A stretch of DNA of 64,000 nucleotides from Lachnospiraceae bacterium (GTDB taxonomy: Bacteria; Bacillota; Clostridia; Lachnospirales; Lachnospiraceae). The translations under genes and the position numbers were made by a program. The stretch spans positions 62,001-126,000 of the forward strand of contig JAFUNK010000024.1 of assembly GCA_017482205.1 (NCBI GenBank), written 5' to 3'. Within the stretch, counting starts at the first letter, position 1, and every line of letters begins with the position of its first letter. This document shows, piece after piece, positions 3,926 through 38,607 of this stretch. The notes under the pieces are model-generated. The model made no database searches, was not told where the DNA came from, and saw only the letters and a program-made list of their open reading frames with translations.

Positions 3926-4579
3926 ATGAAATTTTTCAGTGTAGATGGTGCTCTTTATAAATTTCTGAGCAGATTGTGGGATATGATAAAACTCAATTTC
4001 TTGTGGCTTTTGTTTTCTTTGCCGATAGTGACCATAGGAGCGGCTACCGTAGCTGCTTACAGTGTGACTCTTAAGATGGTGGATGAATCTGAGGGATATG
4101 TAGCAAGACAATTTGTTAAGGCTTTCAAGCAGAACTGGAAACAGGGGATTCCTTTGGGATTGCTGGCAATCTTTTGCTCTTACGTGGTTTATCTGGATTT
4201 TGAGATGTTTAACAAAATAGAAAACAACCCGATTATTCTGGCGATATTCGGTATTGTGGCGGCATTTGTATTCGGATTGGCATTTATCTATGCATTTCCG
4301 TTAAGTGCCCGTTATGAGAACACCCTGCTCGGGACCCTGAAAAATTCCGTAAATATTGCGGTACGCTATTTTGTAAGAACGCTGTTCTTAGTACTTATTT
4401 TAGCATTTGAACTGATATTGATTTTCTTTAATACCACAACTTTATTTTTCGGGCTTTTAATCGGTCCTGCATGTATTATGCTGACAATCAGCGGATTTGC
4501 CATGTATTTCTTCCGCCAGATTGAAAAGGAGCCGGGAGCAGTCAGGGAGACAACACCGGAAGAGAAAGAAGTAAAATAG
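3926..4579 (+). CDS. DUF624 (YesL-like) membrane protein
   Basis: Small polytopic membrane protein of 217 residues with four to five hydrophobic segments. The N-terminal stretch with aromatic and DMIKLNFLWLLFSLP-type sequence followed by TIGAATVAAYSVTLKM is characteristic of the DUF624/YesL family, found beside LplB-type sugar transporters and YesM/YesN two-component genes in Firmicutes. The biochemical role of the family is not established. Here it sits between the importer operon and the GH5 gene (17-nt gap to the latter), which supports a link to uptake or sensing of plant oligosaccharides. RBS GGAGAG precedes the ATG. Confidence 0.8.
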   Translation: MKFFSVDGALYKFLSRLWDMIKLNFLWLLFSLPIVTIGAATVAAYSVTLKMVDESEGYVARQFVKAFKQNWKQGIPLGLLAIFCSYVVYLDFEMFNKIENNPIILAIFGIVAAFVFGLAFIYAFPLSARYENTLLGTLKNSVNIAVRYFVRTLFLVLILAFELILIFFNTTTLFFGLLIGPACIMLTISGFAMYFFRQIEKEPGAVRETTPEEKEVK

Positions 4580-4596
4580 ATTGGGAGGATTTACAG

Positions 4597-7404
4597 ATGA
4601 AAGTGAGAAGCAACTTTAAAAAGCTGTTTGCAGGACTTCTGGCATTTTCACTGTTACTGACAGGAATTCCCGCAGCAGAAAGTAAAGCGGCGGAAAATAC
4701 CCAGACAGTCAGTGCACAGATGCCTTTTAGAGAACTGACGGCAGAAGAAATGGTTTCTGAGATGGGTAACGGCTGGAACCTTGGTAATACCATGGACGGC
4801 CATACCGGTTTTACTCCTTCTGAGACTCTTTGGCAGAATGTAGAAACCACACAGGGACTGATTAAAGAAATCCATGATATGGGATTTAATACCATTCGAG
4901 TACCGGTCACATGGGGTACTATGATTGATGACGAAAACGGATATGCTATTGATGAGCAATGGATGAGTCGTGTACAGGATATTGTGGACTACGCCATTAA
5001 CATGAATATGTATGTCATTATCAACGTACACCATGACGGTGCAGAGCAGACCGGGTGGCTTCGTATTGCAGCAGAGGACTTAGACCCTGTTAAAGAAAAA
5101 TATGAGGCAGTGTGGAGACATATTGCAGAGCGTTTTAAGGATTATGACGAGCATTTGATTTTCGAGTCTATGAACGAAGTGACCGGTGACGGTGTAGTGG
5201 CACAGGATACTGCAATCATCAATGAGTTTAACCAGATATTTGTAGATACTGTACGTGCTACCGGTTCTAACAATGCAGTGCGTTGGTTGTCCGTACCCGG
5301 CAGATATACCAATATTATCAATACCACCAATCCTGATAACGGCTTTAAACTGCCTGAGGACAGTGTGGAAAACAGGTTGTTTGTGGCAGTGCACTACTAT
5401 GACTGGCAGTTTGGTCTGTTAGAGACTACACAGACCACTACCTTCGTAGAGCAGAGAGTGGATGCCCTGATTGATGAGTTCTGGCTTTTAGACGAAGCAT
5501 TTACCTCCAAAGGTATTCCGGTAATCTTGGGCGAATACGGTGCATTAAATAAAAATAATACCGCAGAGCGAGCTTATCATCTGGAAATTGTTACCAGACT
5601 CTGCCAACAGATAGGTATTGTACCCTGTTACTGGGATCAGGGATGGTATGACCTTTCCATGACTCCTGATTTCAGCTTTGCCCTGGTGGACAGAGAAAGC
5701 TATGATAAAATTTATCCTGAAATTTTGGATGCTATGATGCGCGGTTTATTCCTGACCGGTTCTGAGGATTTAAAGGATATCGTAACATCACCTACCGTAA
5801 ACAGCATTCCTGATTTGGGAACTGTGGACGGCACCTATCTGCTTCATATGGGTGAAGTAGAGGATGTGGTTTTAGATGATGTGGATAAAAATGCTTACAA
5901 CGATATTGTACTGTGGAGAAGTGCTGATGAAACCGTAGCAACTGTACATATTGAAGCGGGTAATTTGGATAAGTGGGAAGCTAATATCCATGCAACAGGT
6001 ATCGGTAATACCGTGATTACCGCATATACCCAGAGCGGCAGTGCGATGCTTGAAATTCCCGTAGAGGTACAGGCGGCTGAGACTACCAAGCCTTGTACGG
6101 AAATTACCGTGGAGCAGGATAGCTATCTGATGACCGCAGGACAGTCCTTATTTATGAATGCAGGTATGGCACCGGCAGATACCGATGCATATCTGACCTA
6201 TCGTTCCTCTAACCCGGATGTGGTAACAGTTTCCAAACTTGGTAAGCTGGTAGCTTTACAGGGCGGTAGCGCATATATCATTATTACTTCTTCCGACGGT
6301 TTGACAAAGGTAGTACCCGTAACCGTAGAAGAGGCTGAGGCAACAGCAGAAATTGATATTGCATTAAATGTATATTACAACGACAGCAATTTAAATTATT
6401 TCAGCAATGAATGTGGCAGTGCCATCAGCATTTCCGGGGATGGTCAGTATACACTGGAATTTGACTGTGGCAGTGACCTTTCCGATAAGGCAATTACGGC
6501 AGGTGTAACAGGCTTAAACAACCTGACAGCAATTTACATCAAGGACGACGGTGTGACCAAGGGAAGATATTCCAAGTCCCCGCTAGTGTCCTGTGATATT
6601 ATCTATGATTCCATTGTTGTAGACGGCGTAGAATTTGATGTGAACATGGATGCACCCAAATCAGCAATTAAGGCGTCCGGTATCTTAGATACCAACGACC
6701 CGATTAACTCTTGGGACGGTTCCGTGATTGAGGACGTAGAAGTAAACAATCATGTACTGAACTTTGTGGGACTGGAAAATCCCCAGCATGTAGAAGTAAC
6801 CTTTACTATCAGCAATCTGGTATTTGAAGAAGGAGCCGGAGAAGTAGAGGCAGTAGCTACTGAAAGCTTAGAAGCAGAAAGTAGTGCGGTGAGCGTGGAT
6901 GACAGTGCTCCCACAGAGCTTTCCGTAACGGTAAAACCTACAGATGTAGAAAATATTACCTTTGTATCCTCCGATGCTTCCATCGTATCCGTGGACAATA
7001 AAGCGGTAGCGGCTAATGGCAGTGCAACCATACAGGTTTATGCACATGGTAACGGCGAAGCAGTTGTAACAGCATATGCACCGGACGGGGTATCTACCGT
7101 GTTTACTGTAACCTCTACTGTCTCAGAAGACAGAGTATTTGCGAACTTCAACAATGATGCAGAAGTACCCGCAGATACCACAGGCACGGAAAATACAGGA
7201 AGTACGGCAACAGAAAATACAGACAGCACAACACCCGCGAACGGTACAGACAGCACCGAAGCTACCGAAACGGAGGCAGCCAAGGAAGGAAACAGCGTAT
7301 TGAGTACGGTGTTACTGGTGGCAGGCATTGCATTATTTGGCGTGGTTGCATTTGTAGGCAGTATGAAGCTTGCAGGCGGCAGCAAAAAAGAAGATAAAAA
7401 ATAA
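4597..7404 (+). CDS. Multidomain, membrane-anchored GH5 endoglucanase-type glycosidase
   Basis: Secreted 935-residue glycoside hydrolase predicted to cut beta-glucan or related plant polysaccharide at the cell surface. Order of parts: signal peptide (1-~30); GH5 catalytic domain (~45-385) with GWNLGNTMDG near 59-68, NTIRVPVTW near 98-106, acid/base Glu194 in SMNEVTG and nucleophile Glu313 in ILGEYGAL; two Ig-like/Big_2-type segments (~400-585); a beta-rich region (~590-760) that may be a carbohydrate-binding module; a further Ig-like segment; a Thr/Ser/Glu-rich linker; and a final membrane helix followed by KKEDKK. The C-terminal helix with a lysine stop is a membrane anchor, not an LPXTG sortase signal. 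Starts 17 nt after the DUF624 gene with RBS GGGAGG. Exact substrate (cellulose, mannan, xyloglucan) cannot be told from the sequence. Confidence 0.88.
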   Translation: MKVRSNFKKLFAGLLAFSLLLTGIPAAESKAAENTQTVSAQMPFRELTAEEMVSEMGNGWNLGNTMDGHTGFTPSETLWQNVETTQGLIKEIHDMGFNTIRVPVTWGTMIDDENGYAIDEQWMSRVQDIVDYAINMNMYVIINVHHDGAEQTGWLRIAAEDLDPVKEKYEAVWRHIAERFKDYDEHLIFESMNEVTGDGVVAQDTAIINEFNQIFVDTVRATGSNNAVRWLSVPGRYTNIINTTNPDNGFKLPEDSVENRLFVAVHYYDWQFGLLETTQTTTFVEQRVDALIDEFWLLDEAFTSKGIPVILGEYGALNKNNTAERAYHLEIVTRLCQQIGIVPCYWDQGWYDLSMTPDFSFALVDRESYDKIYPEILDAMMRGLFLTGSEDLKDIVTSPTVNSIPDLGTVDGTYLLHMGEVEDVVLDDVDKNAYNDIVLWRSADETVATVHIEAGNLDKWEANIHATGIGNTVITAYTQSGSAMLEIPVEVQAAETTKPCTEITVEQDSYLMTAGQSLFMNAGMAPADTDAYLTYRSSNPDVVTVSKLGKLVALQGGSAYIIITSSDGLTKVVPVTVEEAEATAEIDIALNVYYNDSNLNYFSNECGSAISISGDGQYTLEFDCGSDLSDKAITAGVTGLNNLTAIYIKDDGVTKGRYSKSPLVSCDIIYDSIVVDGVEFDVNMDAPKSAIKASGILDTNDPINSWDGSVIEDVEVNNHVLNFVGLENPQHVEVTFTISNLVFEEGAGEVEAVATESLEAESSAVSVDDSAPTELSVTVKPTDVENITFVSSDASIVSVDNKAVAANGSATIQVYAHGNGEAVVTAYAPDGVSTVFTVTSTVSEDRVFANFNNDAEVPADTTGTENTGSTATENTDSTTPANGTDSTEATETEAAKEGNSVLSTVLLVAGIALFGVVAFVGSMKLAGGSKKEDKK

Positions 7405-30385: not shown

Positions 30386-30415
30386 TTGAAGGTAAGAAAA
30401 GGCGTTTGGTATACT
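30386..30415 (+). promoter_or_regulatory. Promoter of the LytTR regulator
   Basis: TTGAAG (30386-30391), 18-nt spacer, TATACT (30410-30415); lies 51 nt before the ATG and downstream of the fba terminator. Confidence 0.6.
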
Positions 30416-30465
30416 GAAAAGGTAATGAAAAAAGAGTGCATTTTGCAAAAAAGGGGGATTTATGA

Positions 30466-31194
30466 ATGCAGACAGATAGGGGAAACAGAGGAATTGCAAT
30501 ATGTGATGCTAAGCAGGAAACTTTAGCAGAACTGGAAAAGCTTATTAAGCAGATTTGTAAAAATACACGGCAGGATGTTCTGATGTATAAGTTTCATTCC
30601 GGCGAAACATTGTTAGAAACTATAGAAAAAGTTTCTATTGTTTTTCTTGGCCTTAAGTTGGGCGAAGCGGATGGAATAGAGGTGGGAAGAATTATAAAGC
30701 AAAGAAATCCGGAGTGTAGAATTATTTTAGTAACGGGAAACGAGAGCCGGTATAAGGATGCCTTCCGCATACAGGCGTTTCGGTTTATAACGAAGCCTTT
30801 TGAAAGGGAAGAGGTGGAGGAGGCCTTGGAAGCAGCCTTAAATACCTTTTTGGGAACAGAGAGTATAGGGCTTTACCGGGCACGGACATTATATGAGGTG
30901 CGACAGAAAGATATTAAATATGTGAAAGCCTTTAATGGATATACTGAATTTGCGGTACAGGAAAGTATTTTCCGAAAGGATATATCAATGGATGCACTTA
31001 AGGAACAATTGGACATGCGTACCTTTTACAGAATTAACCGGCAATATCTTGTAAATATGCGTTGGATTCAAAAGTATAAAAATGGCACGTTGTTATTGGC
31101 AAATCAAGAGTTTCAGGTTTCAAGGAGAAAAAGGAGTGATTTTGAAAAAGTATACATGGATTATGAGTTAAATTATAGAAAAAATATATTCTGA
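30466..31194 (+). CDS. LytTR-family transcription regulator with degenerate receiver
   Basis: 242-residue regulator. The C-terminal ~100 residues are a LytTR DNA-binding domain (LYEVRQKDIKYVKAFNGYT; FYRINRQYLVNMRWIQKY). The N-terminal part folds like a response-regulator receiver (GIAICDAKQ; RIILVTGNES; FRFITKPFE), and the Lys of the KPF motif remains. However, the segment that normally reads FLDIxM carries Gly instead of the phospho-acceptor Asp (VFLGLKLGEADGIE), and only one acidic residue is kept at the N-terminus. It is therefore unlikely to be switched by phosphorylation and may instead sense a ligand or act constitutively. No histidine kinase is adjacent. It precedes the precursor peptide genes by 250 nt and is the likely local regulator of the island. 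Confidence 0.88.
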   Translation: MQTDRGNRGIAICDAKQETLAELEKLIKQICKNTRQDVLMYKFHSGETLLETIEKVSIVFLGLKLGEADGIEVGRIIKQRNPECRIILVTGNESRYKDAFRIQAFRFITKPFEREEVEEALEAALNTFLGTESIGLYRARTLYEVRQKDIKYVKAFNGYTEFAVQESIFRKDISMDALKEQLDMRTFYRINRQYLVNMRWIQKYKNGTLLLANQEFQVSRRKRSDFEKVYMDYELNYRKNIF

Positions 31195-31349
31195 CAGGAA
31201 AAGAAAATAGCTAATAATGCAGAATTACTACAGCTGCCATGTCAATAAATAAGTTATAAGACCGTTTAAAGAGTTATGATTGCAAGTCATTGTTTGCTTT
31301 GCTACTGTGAAAGAGAAGAATATACAAAGGCATATTTGTTGTACCAATG

Positions 31350-31393
31350 AATAATTAAAATTACAAATGACAAGGTTTATGATTTTAATTATT
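31350..31393. promoter_or_regulatory. Inverted repeat upstream of the precursor genes
   Basis: AATAATTAAAAT (31350-31361) is perfectly inverted as ATTTTAATTATT (31382-31393) with a 20-nt spacer; CCAA flanks both sides with a 2-nt bulge. No T-run follows, so it is not a standard terminator. It may be an operator or a leader-RNA hairpin of the peptide transcript. About 75 nt upstream, AGTTAT occurs twice (31252 and 31272), a spacing roughly like the paired sites bound by LytTR proteins. Confidence 0.45.
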
Positions 31394-31444
31394 TGGCATT
31401 ATGTATGCGGAGTACATGACTATATATGAAGGGAGAGCAATAAT

Positions 31445-31714
31445 ATGAATGAAGAAATTATGATTCAGGAAGTTGCGGTTGGTGGAAATGAGGTGCAGCT
31501 TGCAGCTATTGTAGGTGCAGGGTGCGGTGTGGTTTGTCTTGGTTTAGGCTGTGCTGACGGTGGAGGTCCGGCACCCACAGGTGCCGGCTGTGGCTTTGGA
31601 TGTGACGGTGCCGGTTGCGTTGGCGGCAGCCTGGGTGCAGCTTGTGGCGGAGGCGGCGGAGGCGGAGCCTGCGGTGGTGCTTGTGCCGGCGGAGCCTGCG
31701 GTGGTTTGTGCTAA
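31445..31714 (+). CDS. Gly/Cys-rich RiPP precursor peptide A
   Basis: 89-residue peptide with 32 Gly and 11 Cys, almost all after residue 26. A short leader (MNEEIMIQEVAVGGNEVQL) precedes a core in which Cys fall at 27, 31, 36, 49, 53, 58, 67, 76, 80, 85 and 89: three C-x3-C-x4-C modules, a lone Cys67 and a terminal Cys89. Four CGxxC pairs (CGVVC, CGFGC, CGGAC, CGGLC) are shared in style with the second peptide. An adjacent radical SAM/SPASM enzyme with a leader-binding domain and an exporter indicate a ribosomally synthesised, post-translationally crosslinked product, probably with thioether links; function (bacteriocin, signal or metal ligand) is not known. GGGAG lies ~9 nt before the ATG. 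No close known precursor family was recognised. Confidence 0.8.
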   Translation: MNEEIMIQEVAVGGNEVQLAAIVGAGCGVVCLGLGCADGGGPAPTGAGCGFGCDGAGCVGGSLGAACGGGGGGGACGGACAGGACGGLC

Positions 31715-31732
31715 TGAAAGGAGTGATTATTC

Positions 31733-31915
31733 ATGGTAGAGATAACAGAAATTTATATTGATGACGTGAATAAGCCTTTTATAGGAAATGATGGAGATAT
31801 CGTAACTGTTCAAAGCGGCTGGGCATGCGGTGTAGGTTGCGAAAACGGTATGGTATGTGGACTGGGTTGTGGACACGGTGTTGGAGGAGTATGCGGCACC
31901 GGGTGCAGCAAATAA
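31733..31915 (+). CDS. Gly/Cys-rich RiPP precursor peptide B
   Basis: 60-residue peptide. The leader of about 30 residues is acidic (MVEITEIYIDDVNKPFIGND) and ends near SGW; the 30-residue core has six Cys at 32, 36, 42, 46, 54 and 58 arranged as three CGxGC pairs (CGVGC, CGLGC, CGTGC) with 14 Gly overall. It follows peptide A by 18 nt and has its own strong RBS (AAAGGAGTG). The leader bears little likeness to that of peptide A, so one enzyme apparently handles two different leaders, or the two peptides act as a two-component product. It ends 66 nt before the radical SAM gene. Confidence 0.8.
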   Translation: MVEITEIYIDDVNKPFIGNDGDIVTVQSGWACGVGCENGMVCGLGCGHGVGGVCGTGCSK

Positions 31916-31981
31916 TAGTAAACAACTATAAATAGTGTGACGCATACATAATGCAAATTTAGGAAGGAAGTTGTGGGGATA

Positions 31982-33343
31982 ATGGAAAAAACGATAAGAA
32001 CCAGGTGTTTAGAAAACCATAAAGGTGAAAAAATCTTATATCTTCCGGATTGTAAAAGAATTTTTAAGGTAAATGAATCGGGAAGTAAATTTATTGAAGA
32101 TCTGGCAGACGGAAACAGTGCAGAAAGTATGAAGGAGAAATACAGTCTGACGGAAGAAAAATACAATAATATTATCAATACCTTACATATAGAAAAGGAA
32201 GAAGAAAGTTGTAGTTGTGCACCTGAAAATGAAAAGATATTAGGCAGATTGGTTATCCATGTTACAAATGTATGTAACTTAAATTGCAGCTATTGTTATG
32301 CGAATGGTGGTAATTACCTGTCAGCCTGCGGTTTGATGAGTGAGGACATGCTGGAAGAGGTTATCCGGGTATTTTATGCCCAATATGATAGAATTAACAC
32401 AATTCAGTTTTTTGGAGGAGAACCACTTCTGAATATTCCCGTCATCGAAAAGGCGTGCGGAATAATCAGGGAAATTGATAAAGAAAGAGGATACACCACG
32501 CAATTTGGTCTGGTTACAAATGGAACTTTAATAGATCAGGATTTTATTGATTTGGTGAAAAAATATCATATTGGTGTAACCATAAGTTATGACGGAAATA
32601 TTTTTGTGAATGATATCCTTCGGGCAGACAAAGAAGGAAAAGGCGTTTCTGAACTGGTACTCAAAAATGCACAGAATTTGAAAAGTCAGACAAATGAACC
32701 GAATACGGTAGAAGTGACCTATACACAAGTGCATATTGAAAATGAGGTAAAAATTTTAGATGTTGTAAAGCATATTCAGGAAATACTACCCAATACATAT
32801 GTGCATTTGGTTCCGGCGGGCGGAAAAGAAGAGGACGAATTCACCGTAAAAAATCTGGACATATTTGCGGATTCGATAGATGAAATTTTTAGAGAAGCGG
32901 ATAAAAGCAGTGATGGAAGAGTACCGTCTTATTCGTTAGCAGATAGAATATTTTATGCTCTAAAAAATAAAGAAGCAAAGGGAAGCCGCTACATTTGTGA
33001 TGCCGGAGTGGGAACTATTTCAGTATCTGTTGGCGGAGACGTTTATCCCTGCTTTATGTTTACGGATCAAGAGGAATTGAAACTGGGAAATATCATGGAC
33101 CCACAGCTGTTTGACAGTGCCATATTTAGAGAACAGTTAAAGAGGATTCGGGATTTTTCTTTTAAAGGCAAAAATGCTGAGTGTGAAAAATGTTATATAA
33201 ACACCTTGTGTAACGGCTGCTTAGGGTTAAATTCCTATCATTCGGGTGATCCTTTGGTTTTATCCAATGAAATTTGTGAAATGTTCAGAAATATGACGGA
33301 CAGAGCAATTATTAATTTTGCTGACAGAGTGGGTGAGGCGTAA
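31982..33343 (+). CDS. Radical SAM/SPASM peptide-maturation enzyme with PqqD-like domain
   Basis: 453-residue iron-sulfur enzyme predicted to modify the two upstream peptides. Residues ~15-75 (ILYLPDCKRIFKVNESGSKF ... EEKYNNIINTL) match the PqqD-like leader-recognition fold. The radical SAM cluster motif is CNLNCSYC near residues 97-104, followed by FFGGEPLL and LVTNGT. The C-terminal SPASM region has Cys in YICDAGVG, VYPCFMF, ECEKCYINTLCNGC and NEICEMF, enough for auxiliary clusters. This build is shared by sactipeptide- and ranthipeptide-forming enzymes that make Cys thioethers. A GTG at 31973 is an alternative start with a better-placed AGGAAGG. Stop overlaps the next start (TAATG), indicating coupling to the exporter. 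Confidence 0.9.
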   Translation: MEKTIRTRCLENHKGEKILYLPDCKRIFKVNESGSKFIEDLADGNSAESMKEKYSLTEEKYNNIINTLHIEKEEESCSCAPENEKILGRLVIHVTNVCNLNCSYCYANGGNYLSACGLMSEDMLEEVIRVFYAQYDRINTIQFFGGEPLLNIPVIEKACGIIREIDKERGYTTQFGLVTNGTLIDQDFIDLVKKYHIGVTISYDGNIFVNDILRADKEGKGVSELVLKNAQNLKSQTNEPNTVEVTYTQVHIENEVKILDVVKHIQEILPNTYVHLVPAGGKEEDEFTVKNLDIFADSIDEIFREADKSSDGRVPSYSLADRIFYALKNKEAKGSRYICDAGVGTISVSVGGDVYPCFMFTDQEELKLGNIMDPQLFDSAIFREQLKRIRDFSFKGKNAECEKCYINTLCNGCLGLNSYHSGDPLVLSNEICEMFRNMTDRAIINFADRVGEA

Positions 33344-35112
33344 TGTTTTCGGGTATAAGGTATTTGTTATCCCATTGTTGGAAATTTAATCCGAAATATA
33401 TTATTTTACTGTTTATCAGACAGATAGGGAATATTATGAATGTATACCTTGGTCTGTTGCTGCCACAGTATATCCTTGATGCCGTATTTATTGATAGGAA
33501 TGCAGAAATGGCATGGAAGTATGTGATTGCTTTTATTGCCATTTCTATTCTCATCAGTCTGTATACGCACTTTGTTGTAAACGCTATCTCCATTGAACGG
33601 ATGAATACGTTCAGGCACTTTCAGCTGTATCTGGGAAACAAGATGATGAGTGCAAAGTTTGAGGATATTGAATCAGAAGAGTTTCTCAATATAAAAAGTA
33701 AGGCTGAAAAATTTTTGTATGGAAACGGTACCGGGTTTGCAAGTGTATTGGAAAGTGCAATTGATTTGATTGGGAAAGGTGTTTCACTAATTACCATTTC
33801 TGGTATTATTGCAACTTTGAACATGGAACTGATTCTCATATTATTAGTAATTGTTGTAATGAGTTCTTTTATTTCGGCGTTGAACCAGAAAGCAAATATA
33901 AAAATAAACTTGGAAAAAGCAGTACAGGAAAGAAGAAATTCCTATTTCAGTAATTTGTTTCAGGATTTTAGATTTGGAAAAGAAATCAGAGTATATAATC
34001 TGGTGGCGTGGCTTTCAGAAAAATATAGAACCCAGTTGGAAAAAATGATGGTCTTTTACAGGCGGAACTCACGCATAAACATAAAATACGGTATACTGAA
34101 CTTATTAGTATCCAATGTTCAATTAATTGTATCGTACATTTACGTTGTAAATGAAGCTTTCAAGGGTGTATTGACTGTGGGCGCCTTTACAAAATATCTG
34201 TCAGCAATTACTACTTTTTCTTCAACATTAAAGGACATTATATATGGATTTATCAATATGCAGCAATATACTGACTATTATAAAGCATATGAACAGTACA
34301 TAAGCATAGAAGATATTTTTTCGGATAAAGGAAGTGAAATGAAAATCACACTGCCTGATACCGAAAAAATAGAAATAGAATTTGTAAACGTTTATTTTCG
34401 ATACAATTCGCAAAGTGATTATAGTCTGAAGAATGTGTCAATCAAGTTTTCTGATGCGGAGAAGATTGCGGTAGTTGGTGAAAATGGTGCAGGAAAATCC
34501 ACATTTATAAAGTTGTTGCTACGGATTTATAAACCCACAAAAGGTAAAATTTTGTTGAATGGAATAGATATACAAACAATTAGTTATGATTCTTATATAA
34601 AAAAGTTTGCGGCTGTTTTTCAGGACTTTAAGTTGTTTTCTTTTTCGGTTGAAGAGAATATCCAATTTGGAAATACCGATGCCTCTTTACTGAATGAAGT
34701 GTTAGTGCAGACCGGGCTGTCCGATAAAGTGATGAGTTTGCCCCAAAGAGAGCATACACTCATATATAAAGACTTTGACCAATATGGGTATACACCTTCC
34801 GGAGGTGAGGCACAAAAGCTTGCTATGGCACGCGCAATCAGCCAAAAAGAAGCGAGAGCCGTTATTTTGGATGAACCTACATCTGCATTAGACCCTTTAG
34901 CAGAAATTGAGGTATATAATCGGTTTCATACTTTCTTTGGCAATAAAATGTGTATATATATATCACATCGTTTGGCCTGTACACAATTCTGCTCCCGAAT
35001 AATCGTTTTTCAAAACGGTAAAATAGTTGAGAGCGGAAGTCAAAAAGAACTTTTGGAATCGGATGGTCAATTTAAAAAAATGTATGAAATGCAAAAATGG
35101 ATGTATAATTAA
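33343..35112 (+). CDS. ABC exporter (fused membrane and ATPase domains) of the RiPP island
   Basis: 589-residue half-transporter of the exporter type. The first ~310 residues hold about five to six membrane segments; the ATPase follows with Walker A GENGAGKST, signature SGGEA in TPSGGEAQKLAMARAIS, Walker B AVILDEPTSALDP and the His switch in YISHRLA. There is no N-terminal C39 peptidase domain, so it would not cleave a leader itself. It is translationally coupled to the radical SAM gene and most likely exports the mature peptides, or alternatively confers immunity. The AT-rich codon use (many AAA, ATA, TTT) is similar to that of the radical SAM gene and unlike the flanking housekeeping genes. 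Confidence 0.9.
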   Translation: MFSGIRYLLSHCWKFNPKYIILLFIRQIGNIMNVYLGLLLPQYILDAVFIDRNAEMAWKYVIAFIAISILISLYTHFVVNAISIERMNTFRHFQLYLGNKMMSAKFEDIESEEFLNIKSKAEKFLYGNGTGFASVLESAIDLIGKGVSLITISGIIATLNMELILILLVIVVMSSFISALNQKANIKINLEKAVQERRNSYFSNLFQDFRFGKEIRVYNLVAWLSEKYRTQLEKMMVFYRRNSRINIKYGILNLLVSNVQLIVSYIYVVNEAFKGVLTVGAFTKYLSAITTFSSTLKDIIYGFINMQQYTDYYKAYEQYISIEDIFSDKGSEMKITLPDTEKIEIEFVNVYFRYNSQSDYSLKNVSIKFSDAEKIAVVGENGAGKSTFIKLLLRIYKPTKGKILLNGIDIQTISYDSYIKKFAAVFQDFKLFSFSVEENIQFGNTDASLLNEVLVQTGLSDKVMSLPQREHTLIYKDFDQYGYTPSGGEAQKLAMARAISQKEARAVILDEPTSALDPLAEIEVYNRFHTFFGNKMCIYISHRLACTQFCSRIIVFQNGKIVESGSQKELLESDGQFKKMYEMQKWMYN

Positions 35113-35143
35113 TAGTAAGAGTGTGGATGAAAGGAATGTTGTT

Positions 35144-35335
35144 ATGTATGAATACAAATTTGTAAGAATGGATCAGATGAACAGGCTTAATGCAGACTTT
35201 GAAAAATGTAAAGCAGAGATTGAAAAGCATGCCAATGACGGTTGGAGATTTGTCCAGATAGTAATGCTTCCCAATGATAAGCTGGGAGTATACAGACCGG
35301 CTTCCTATGAAATTATTTTTGAACGTGCGGTATAA
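35144..35335 (+). CDS. Small DUF4177 protein
   Basis: 63-residue soluble protein. The pattern YEYKFVRMDQ ... AEIEKHANDGWRFVQIV ... YEIIFERAV is that of DUF4177, a small alpha/beta domain of unknown function in Firmicutes and other bacteria. It is the last gene of the RiPP island, 31 nt after the exporter, before the terminator at 35348. Its role (accessory, immunity, or passenger) cannot be told. ATG at 35144 follows AAAGGA with 8-nt spacing. Confidence 0.75.
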   Translation: MYEYKFVRMDQMNRLNADFEKCKAEIEKHANDGWRFVQIVMLPNDKLGVYRPASYEIIFERAV

Positions 35336-35347
35336 ATTAGTTGACGT

Positions 35348-35388
35348 AAAGAGTAGAGTATGTAGAAATACATACCCTGCTCTTTTTT
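35348..35388 (+). terminator. Terminator of the RiPP island
   Basis: AAAGAG (35348-35353) and GTATGT (35358-35363) pair with ACATAC (35370-35375) and CTCTTT (35380-35385), followed by T6. Confidence 0.85.
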
Positions 35389-36935: not shown

Positions 36936-37595
36936 TTATATTCTGTCAGGAGATATTACTTTGTAATATTTGAGTTGCAAAAACTTAGGCAACTCTTTTT
37001 CGTACAAGCTATGTAAATCTTTATTGTAGCCTGCAATAGCTTGAGGACAAAGTGTGACAATTTTTTTGATGTGTTCACTCACTGCACTTTCATTCTTTAC
37101 CTCGGCTACCTGTAAATGACCATCTGTAAATCCAAATACAATAACATAGGATTTGTCTACGGTTACAAAGTAGCGTTTGTGGCGGACAACATTTGGGTAA
37201 ATCCATGCAAGTTTTGTTGTTTCGCCAAAGGCGATAGTCCCCCTATAGCTTCCGCAGATAAATTCGTGATTATATCTGAGCCCATCTGTTTCAAGGGTAT
37301 TTTTGATAAAATGATTTATTTTTTCTTTTGCCAGTGCAGAATTTGTACAGCCGGATATATATCGTTTTACCGATTTTTGGTATTGACCGGAAAAAATCCA
37401 AACGACAAAGAGGATAACAACTAGAAGAAATAAGCCACCCATTACCAGCAGACGAACAGCTTCTTCTTGCGTATATCTGTCAGAAATGTGGAGGAGAGAA
37501 GGCAGTGATATACCTATCATAATACCGCCTATAATAAAAAATGTAACAAGAAGTAATGCTACGGTTTTAAAACTTTGTATTTTTAGAGTGTTCAT
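36936..37595 (-). CDS. Two-helix membrane protein of unknown function
   Basis: 219 residues. Two N-terminal membrane helices (~10-34 and ~48-70) are joined by a short extracytoplasmic loop; the remaining ~145 residues are soluble and probably cytoplasmic, with a compact alpha/beta pattern (KLAWIYPNVVRHKRYFVTVDKSYVIVFGF split over two strands). No catalytic motif or known family was recognised. It stands alone between the TIM-barrel gene and a 1-kb noncoding region. Confidence 0.7.
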   Translation of the reverse strand: MNTLKIQSFKTVALLLVTFFIIGGIMIGISLPSLLHISDRYTQEEAVRLLVMGGLFLLVVILFVVWIFSGQYQKSVKRYISGCTNSALAKEKINHFIKNTLETDGLRYNHEFICGSYRGTIAFGETTKLAWIYPNVVRHKRYFVTVDKSYVIVFGFTDGHLQVAEVKNESAVSEHIKKIVTLCPQAIAGYNKDLHSLYEKELPKFLQLKYYKVISPDRI

Positions 37596-38114
37596 ATTAT
37601 TTTCCTTTATAAAATATTATAATGAATAATTATAACATAAAACCCCTAAAAAGGGAGGATGCCAGGCAACAATTGCCTGGCATTTATTATGAAAAAGTTA
37701 TTTAATATATCTAAATACTGTAACTAGCATGTTAAAAGATAATTTTGTATCTTATGAGTATAGTATAAGAAAAAGAAGTGTCTAAAGAATGATTTGGGAA
37801 TGAAGTTTTCTTGAATTATTTGTGAACAAAATATGAACGAGAGCGTTTTTCGACACTAATCGGTGTTTTGTTGTATAGATTTCTTTTTAGAAATATTGGG
37901 TTATGATAATATAAAAGATATTAATAAATTTGAAGTTGACGCGAAGCGTCAACGAGGAAAACGTAGAACGTTTTTCGAGTCTGGGTGTGTAGATAGATTA
38001 AAATTGAGTGAGCTCTTTTGTGCGCGATGACAATTGAATACAGTTCGATTATATGGGTAAAAGTTGAATTTGCAAATATTTTGGTGGAGCAGAGAAAGTA
38101 GAGGCAGTTAGAGA

Positions 38115-38384
38115 CCGACCGGATATAGAGAAAGTTTGCGGCGGTCGGGGCACAACGTCACTTTCAATCCGACCGGAGAGCAGAAAAAGCTAATCTAGTC
38201 GGAATAAAGTAGTGTCAAAAAGCCGACTGAAAAGTAGAAAAGCCTAATGTAGTCGGGGGAAAGTAGTGTCAAAAAGCCGACTGGAAAACGGAAAAGCCTA
38301 ATTTAGTCGGAATAAAGTAGTGGTAAAAGGCCGACTGAAAGACGAAAAAGCCTTATCAGGTGGGGCGAATAAGTGGTTTTAAAA
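38115..38384. repeat. 54-bp tandem repeat, five units, each with an inverted CCGACT/AGTCGG pair
   Basis: Units start at 38115, 38169, 38223, 38277 and 38331, exactly 54 bp apart. Each opens with CCGACT or CCGACC; in units 1-4 a partner AGTCGG or GGTCGG lies about 24 bp later. In the first unit both halves change together (CCGACCG with CGGTCGG), consistent with kept base pairing. Between hairpins stands AAAGTAGTG-type sequence. All three forward frames and most reverse frames contain stops, so it is not coding. The fifth unit is degenerate. A lone AAAAAGCCGACT match occurs at ~36800. Confidence 0.85.
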
Positions 38385-38607
38385 TATAGGATAGATTTCC
38401 GTTTTGTAAGACTTCTATATAACAATTATTGGCGATAAAAACGTATTTTGATGGATAGATTTAAGAATTTAACCAGTTCTATATAATTAAGGGCGATGTG
38501 CAGGCAGTTTTTGTGGTACATACGGTTCCTGATTGTTTGCATATTACTTAATGGATATTGTTATATTATAAATCCCAATTTGTAGAAACAATTTTCAAAC
38601 AGTCTCA

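Follow-up and report, generated by a model that had tools for sequence, protein, structure and literature searches.

A Lachnospiraceae radical SAM peptide island with paired precursors and a recurrent G-x-x-C grammar

The closest described relatives of the system analysed here are ribosomally synthesised and post-translationally modified peptides (RiPPs) that receive thioether links from radical S-adenosylmethionine (SAM) enzymes. Sections of PMC8326336 give one to four links for sactipeptides in general and six crosslinks for freyrasin, and describe NxxcA of Streptococcus orisratti, in which Cys23 is joined to Asn20 by an S-C beta bond, with the acceptor at position -3. Passages of PMC8172795 assign to streptosactin tandem S-C alpha rings between Cys31 and Gly34 and between Cys25 and Ser28 (one of them prints Cys15 for Cys25), and an excerpt of PMC12445099 joins Cys5 of enteropeptin to the alpha carbon of residue 4. 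The acceptors given for ruminococcin C in a section of PMC6779426 lie after their cysteines, the maturase PapB accepts Cys-Xn-Asp with n of 0-6 according to part of PMC9413430, and the CGG and CGx subfamilies of streptococcal radical SAM RiPPs (RaS-RiPPs) are listed in a passage of PMC13361665 as not characterised and as associated with rgg. Here we analyse a peptide modification island in a 64,000-nucleotide stretch of a Lachnospiraceae bacterium genome (assembly GCA_017482205.1, contig JAFUNK010000024.1, positions 62,001 to 126,000), to which we refer as the window and in which all island coordinates are given. In this island two Gly/Cys-rich precursor genes, P1 and P2, precede a radical SAM maturase and an exporter.

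From the sequences compared below, we lean towards a reading in which the island makes a two-peptide RiPP with tandem S-C alpha(Gly) rings, the acceptor glycine lying at -3 from each cysteine. The genes on which this reading turns are the following.

31445-31714, + strand: precursor P1, 89 amino acids (aa) and 11 Cys, from its translation and G-x-x-C count; no family in NCBIfam, Pfam or PHROGs
31733-31915, + strand: precursor P2, 60 aa and 6 Cys, from its translation and G-x-x-C count; only chance-level family matches
31982-33343, + strand: radical SAM/SPASM peptide maturase with a predicted N-terminal domain resembling the RiPP recognition element (RRE), from Pfam, NCBIfam, predicted fold and alignment
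33343-35112, + strand: fused ATP-binding cassette (ABC) exporter (permease and ATPase), from Pfam ABC_tran and identity to the L007 and L008 exporters

A preliminary description of this DNA had proposed a comparison of genome neighbourhoods, and the order P1-P2-enzyme-exporter was found to recur in three further loci: L007, from Enterococcus ureilyticus; L008, from a different genome of the window's family; and L019, from a second Enterococcus-family genome. In L008, two extra ABC genes lie between P2 and the enzyme. The L007 enzyme is 50% identical to that of the window, this being the only locus from the contig scan with the patterns of a close relative, and the window exporter shares 45% identity with its L007 counterpart and 41% with that of L008. 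Because precursors, enzyme and exporter recur together in three other genomes, the island is a real, conserved and patchily distributed two-peptide RiPP system.

The precursor cores follow a simple grammar. The units of P1 read GAGC, GVVC, GLGC, GAGC, GFGC, GAGC, GAAC, GGAC, GGAC, GGAC and GGLC, and those of P2 GWAC, GVGC, GMVC, GLGC, GGVC and GTGC, so that Gly occupies -3 in 11/11 and 6/6 Cys, respectively; with the cysteines fixed, 7 and 78 of 20000 shuffles reach these values. Across the eight precursors of the four-locus group (window, L007, L008 and L019) the rule holds for 49/50 Cys, and across all 16 Cys-bearing precursors for 72/75, the exceptions being one Cys each in L008 P2, L013 a and L010. 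In an offset count that omitted each core's initial Cys and was compared with shuffles of all letters except Cys, Gly stood at -3 in 41/42 cases in the four-locus group (20.3 expected, and 0/2000 shuffles reaching the observed value) and in 56/59 cases in all 16 precursors (26.2 expected). These counts omit one leader Cys of L025 as well as L009 and L011, which have no assigned precursor with a core Cys. Starts were chosen among in-frame options for L007 P1, L008 P1 and P2, L013 c, L016 a, L019 P1 and the third L009 peptide, a choice that leaves the cores of the Cys-bearing precursors untouched.

Cys-Cys gaps shorter than four residues are likewise absent from the four-locus group (0/42), against a mean of 19.2 and a minimum of 10 in 20000 full shuffles; beyond this group, a gap of 3 occurs once in L010. 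Both features, the -3 Gly and gaps of at least four, are needed if four-residue G-x-x-C units are not to overlap. A fixed tandem repeat was rejected as the source of the rule because Cys spacing varies between 4 and 13. Gly at +1, which shows a weaker excess (38/70 against 30.5 expected), was also dismissed as a rule, since at a gap of 4 it mostly coincides with the -3 Gly of the following Cys. Three peptides of two loci (L016 and L024), chosen by eye with the rule already known and counted apart from the 16, obey it in 5/6 Cys. As a control we used SCIFF peptides from L033 and from L012 (5776-7445), a separate locus of the window's own genome where a SCIFF-like peptide is followed by a related radical SAM enzyme; 0/12 Cys in these peptides, which are homologous to each other, obey the rule.

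The leaders of both precursors share a similar motif, I-x-E plus hydrophobic residues, as judged by eye and with no motif statistics; examples are MNEEIMIQEVAV and MVEITEIYIDDV in the window, MNEIKINEVEL in L007 P2 and SERVEIVELSM in L008 P1. The preliminary description could name no family for the precursors, and no family in NCBIfam, Pfam or PHROGs claims either of them, the two matches of P2 (E 0.057 and 0.038) lying at chance level. This lack of a family match, combined with the extreme composition, would also be expected if the peptides were not substrates at all, but low-complexity Gly/Cys frames or structural proteins beside an unrelated enzyme. The maintenance of the P1-P2-enzyme-exporter order in four loci, of the window's and Enterococcus families, and the conservation of the grammar make this explanation extremely unlikely.

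A residue that is Gly almost without exception, and that keeps a constant distance of three positions ahead of the Cys, is most simply explained as the bond acceptor; since Gly can offer no carbon other than the alpha carbon, a bond to it must be of the S-C alpha type. The upstream alpha acceptor of enteropeptin provides a precedent for this polarity. The reverse polarity is found in streptosactin, where sections of PMC8172795 describe rings from Cys to a Gly or Ser at +3, and S-C alpha rings of that kind would accommodate the +3 Gly seen for 13/18 Cys in the four P2 peptides (7.9 expected; 0.009 of shuffles) and for 34/59 in all 16 precursors (26.2 expected; 0.0125 of shuffles). In the eight-precursor group, however, Gly at +3 falls to 25/42 (20.4 expected; 0.08 of shuffles) against 41/42 at -3, and in all 16 precursors the final Cys is followed by fewer than three residues, leaving 59/75 Cys with a residue at +3. 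We therefore regard a downstream acceptor as unlikely.

The maturase presents the CNLNCSYC motif and matches both Pfam Radical_SAM and SPASM. Its structural model (mean predicted local distance difference test, or pLDDT, of 88.5) begins, within the first 70 residues, with a beta-beta-beta-alpha-alpha-alpha succession over residues 8-68, an order that we take to be that of PqqD and RRE domains, and the radical SAM/SPASM protein with a PqqD-like start of the preliminary description is thus recovered. The island accordingly pairs short leader-bearing precursors with a SPASM enzyme carrying an RRE, the latter recognised from the predicted fold only. An alignment of 14 proteins, which takes in the SCIFF maturase of the window's own genome, revealed invariant Cys at positions 98, 102 and 105 and at seven more (339, 357, 401, 404, 410, 413 and 432); seven auxiliary Cys presumably leave a single cluster position free, to which a substrate thiol could bind. 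The top Foldseek match of the model was 5why (E 5.3e-24), a thioether-forming maturase by its entry title, and the top phmmer match of the protein was 5wgg (E 4.2e-27); we take both to be CteB.

Among the best 25 NCBIfam models, which do not include RumMC, the window maturase scored far below the cut-off of each. The best score corresponded to the PapB model NF047865 (177.2 bits against a cut-off of 340), and values of 144 bits against 425, 101.9 against 650, 97.5 against 500 and 62.3 against 625 were obtained for the SCIFF maturase TIGR03974, the GggB sactisynthase, CcpM (TIGR04068) and the StsB sactisynthase models. P1 and P2, with 11 and 6 Cys in 89 and 60 aa, also depart from the six Cys in about 45 residues of SCIFF precursors. 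Seven enzymes were scanned in this way (window, L009, L010, L013, L025, L026 and L027, leaving out L007, L008, L011, L016, L019 and L024). PapB was the best model in 7/7, at 167-190 bits against 340, and the assignment of a named maturase family to the clade was rejected, as was CcpM as its parent family (88-151 bits against 500).

The PapB model and the nearest solved fold, that of 5why and 5wgg, would fit a ranthipeptide, in which an enzyme such as PapB, ScfB or NxxcB links the Cys sulfur to the beta or gamma carbon of a side chain. The PapB score is nonetheless about half of the cut-off, Asp, Asn and Thr are scarce in the window cores, and Gly, the residue conserved at the partner position, lacks a beta carbon. 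Furthermore, the CX3D/E motif of PapB substrates is missing, with Asp or Glu at +4 in 0/15 of the window Cys that have a +4 residue (out of 17 in total). Ranthipeptide bonds hence appear very improbable, and a sactipeptide-type S-C alpha bond is likelier on this sequence pattern because the G-x-x-C rule points to Gly alpha carbons as acceptors. Of the sactipeptide or ranthipeptide chemistry put forward in the preliminary description, the SPASM RiPP island and the S-C alpha option therefore hold up better than the ranthipeptide option, which loses ground to the -3 Gly and the lack of Asp or Glu at +4.

Under the proposed tandem ring chemistry, the RRE of the enzyme would bind both leaders, and a 5'-deoxyadenosyl radical would abstract an alpha hydrogen from the -3 Gly of every Cys. 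The sulfur of that Cys, held at the open site of an auxiliary cluster, would close onto the Gly alpha carbon. P1 would thereby acquire up to 11 and P2 up to 6 four-residue thioether rings, arranged in succession without overlap and each with a loss of 2 Da. The exporter would then secrete the product, a protease encoded elsewhere would remove the leader, and its role would most likely be that of a two-component bacteriocin or a density signal.

Several observations weigh against such upstream-acceptor rings. Once Cys is set aside, 46-55% of the residues of the window cores are Gly, and single G-x-x-C matches mean little. Since the precursors are homologous, the 50 Cys cannot be counted as independent of one another, and this shared ancestry makes the shuffle figures exaggerate the case; the stronger point is that the rule persists despite changed spacing and Cys number. 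One of the six Cys found after the rule was formulated, in L016, breaks it, and the peptides of L024, L026 and L027 have only two Cys each, for which a disulfide is also possible. Within the window island, neither an M50-type nor any other leader protease was found. Lastly, the related enzyme of L009 (5854-6873), 37-38% identical, adjoins four candidate precursors that lack Cys, provided that an internal start is taken for the third, but have a leader motif that is similar by eye. Two of these peptides are nearly identical in the leader, and two end in GLW.

Because the L009 enzyme adjoins Cys-free candidate precursors, the clade is not bound to Cys chemistry; the L009 peptides possibly undergo a different modification by the same enzyme clade, which probably does more than one thing. 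The L009 case would fit a window enzyme that forms a C-C bond, epimerises or dehydrogenates at Gly, with the Cys serving as disulfides or metal ligands, as the spacing of exactly CxxxC in 19/42 gaps could also suggest. Yet the -3 Gly is also kept where the preceding Cys lies 5 to 13 residues away, and odd Cys numbers (11 in P1, 5 in L008 P1) fit poorly with full intrapeptide disulfide pairing. We consider such alternative chemistry rather unlikely.

If tandem S-C alpha(Gly) rings are formed, their nearest counterparts are split between several systems. NxxC RaS-RiPPs share the acceptor three residues before the Cys, and with it the four-residue ring frame, but contain a single S-C beta ring to Asn, whereas the window pair has up to 17 units with Gly, and S-C alpha bonds if formed. 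Streptosactin (GggA/GggB), in the passages cited above, matches in having four-residue S-C alpha rings in tandem without nesting, one of which closes on Gly, but has two rings with the acceptor at +3 instead of the predicted -3, and the window enzyme falls far short of the GggB cut-off. The predicted product would thus combine the NxxC ring frame with the streptosactin bond, many times over. Enteropeptin resembles it in the S-C alpha bond and the upstream acceptor, which is however an adjacent Arg-derived residue in a single ring. Thuricin CD (TrnA/TrnB and TrnC/TrnD) likewise consists of two different precursors matured together by radical SAM enzymes, but, in the part of PMC12093266 that covers it, efficient crosslinking needs two maturases and yields three crosslinks per peptide, in contrast with the one maturase and tandem grammar of the window. 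Freyrasin (PapA/PapB) and SCIFF peptides have many Cys and many crosslinks, and supply the nearest family model and solved structure, but differ in the CX3D/E motif of the former and in the disregard of the latter for the G-x-x-C rule. The CGG and CGx subfamilies, compared by description only, are named after Cys-Gly motifs and share an rgg association with L007, which has an Rgg regulator; they may be kin of the window family, which would lower its novelty.

No description of the G-x-x-C pattern, with Cys repeatedly stapled to a Gly three residues before, was found in the literature, most subscription journals lying outside the search. The grammar is what is new here. More tentatively, the system may represent a separate Bacillota radical SAM RiPP family, in which one enzyme reads a G-x-x-C code and writes tandem upstream-acceptor S-C alpha(Gly) rings, up to 11 per peptide and 17 per pair.

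Relatives of the enzyme are thinly spread. In the window's genus only the window's own genome has one (1/61 at E <= 1e-60, many of the 61 being incomplete), and genus searches around two relatives returned only the relative itself (1/13 and 1/4 genomes). At least 5/397 genomes of the window's family and at least 4/194 of another family of the class carry a relative at E <= 1e-60, as do at least 3/391 of the class and 2/398 of the phylum at E <= 1e-70. With the L007 enzyme as query, 2/105 Enterococcus-family genomes (1e-70) and at least 2/246 of its order (1e-60) were positive. All counts include the query genome where it belongs to the set, the sets overlap, and the family, class, phylum, other-family and order values are lower bounds, as only some first-look candidates per genome were scored. 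In the enzyme tree, window, L007 and L008 group together (96/98 support) and L019 is not firmly joined, leaving the four-locus group unsupported as a single clade. A plasmid origin was rejected, as plasmid sequences matched neither the enzyme (at E 1e-40) nor P2 (at E 0.01), and so was a phage origin, with one match in a phage collection (29% identity) and two weak matches (25% and 32%) in a single scan of IMG/VR.

The neighbourhoods of these relatives vary. Three precursors are present in L013 and one or two in L010, L025, L026 and L027. An M50-type protease adjoins the enzyme in L010, L013, L024 and L026, and in the first three it is related to the daptide HExxH family, below cut-off; L027 has a similar-looking neighbour, identified by appearance only. 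Regulators include LytTR in L008 and, of quorum type and in favour of the proposed reading, a GHKL kinase in L008 and L025 and the Rgg of L007, where two genes scanned after the exporter gave one DUF3796 protein and one without a match. By eye, two transposition-type genes (L019, 3402-5596) lie directly upstream of the L019 precursor pair. Upstream of the L016 enzyme (3964-6637) are three proteins of 233-236 aa that share their final 20 residues. A mini-precursor of about 31-33 aa lies ahead of each of two of these proteins; the one protein scanned against NCBIfam had no match.

The remaining features of the window island, whose genes span 30466-35335, are listed below.

30466-31194, + strand: LytTR-type regulator with a degenerate receiver, from Pfam LytTR and Response_reg and alignment with the L008, L010 and L025 regulators
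35144-35335, + strand: DUF4177 protein, 63 aa, from Pfam PF13783
35348-35385, + strand: terminator-like hairpin at the island end, from folding against shuffles

The preliminary description had anticipated most of this layout, including the two short Gly/Cys-rich genes with 11 and 6 Cys, the fused exporter, the DUF4177 and LytTR genes and the coupling of enzyme and exporter by TAATG, the maturase TAA overlapping the exporter ATG at 33343. The terminator that it placed after the DUF4177 gene corresponds to the hairpin above (-19.7 kcal/mol, z -3.97, with 0/200 shuffles equally good), which a simple pattern scan for terminators did not list. Its island start at 30386 was abandoned, since the 46-aa frame that begins there with TTG, ahead of the regulator, was not accepted as a gene. 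The maturase has an alternative start, GTG at 31973. In the exporter, ABC_tran was the only Pfam curated cut-off passed, and the Pfam scan found no peptidase domain. An immunity or accessory role is possible for the DUF4177 gene.

The receiver of the LytTR regulator has FLG at the usual phospho-acceptor Asp, where the three comparators (L008, L010 and L025) have FLD or FFD. Because Gly replaces this Asp and no kinase gene adjoins, the regulator probably works without phosphorylation. An inverted repeat upstream of P1 (31350-31393; 18-nt arms, 89% complementary, 8 nt apart) is a possible operator or attenuator, and a promoter scan showed no excess (21 found against 19.0 expected). By eye, the island is flanked by an aldolase-like gene on one side and a glyoxalase-like gene on the other. 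GC content lies at 33.5-36.5% in the enzyme and exporter genes and at 40-43% ahead of the regulator. As the downstream flank also drops to 33% at 37000-38500, this contrast is weak evidence of island import. The source genome comprises 2.16 Mb in 28 contigs and is 73.7% complete.

If G-x-x-C is a crosslink code, ring positions would be readable from sequence alone in this RiPP family. The 11 or 17 thioether links so predicted would far exceed the range of sactipeptides in general and the number in freyrasin, and a single enzyme repeating one reaction up to 11 times per peptide would provide a subject for the study of processivity. Such an enzyme would also be of use in the thioether stapling of Gly-rich peptides, and its products may constitute a new two-component bacteriocin or signal.

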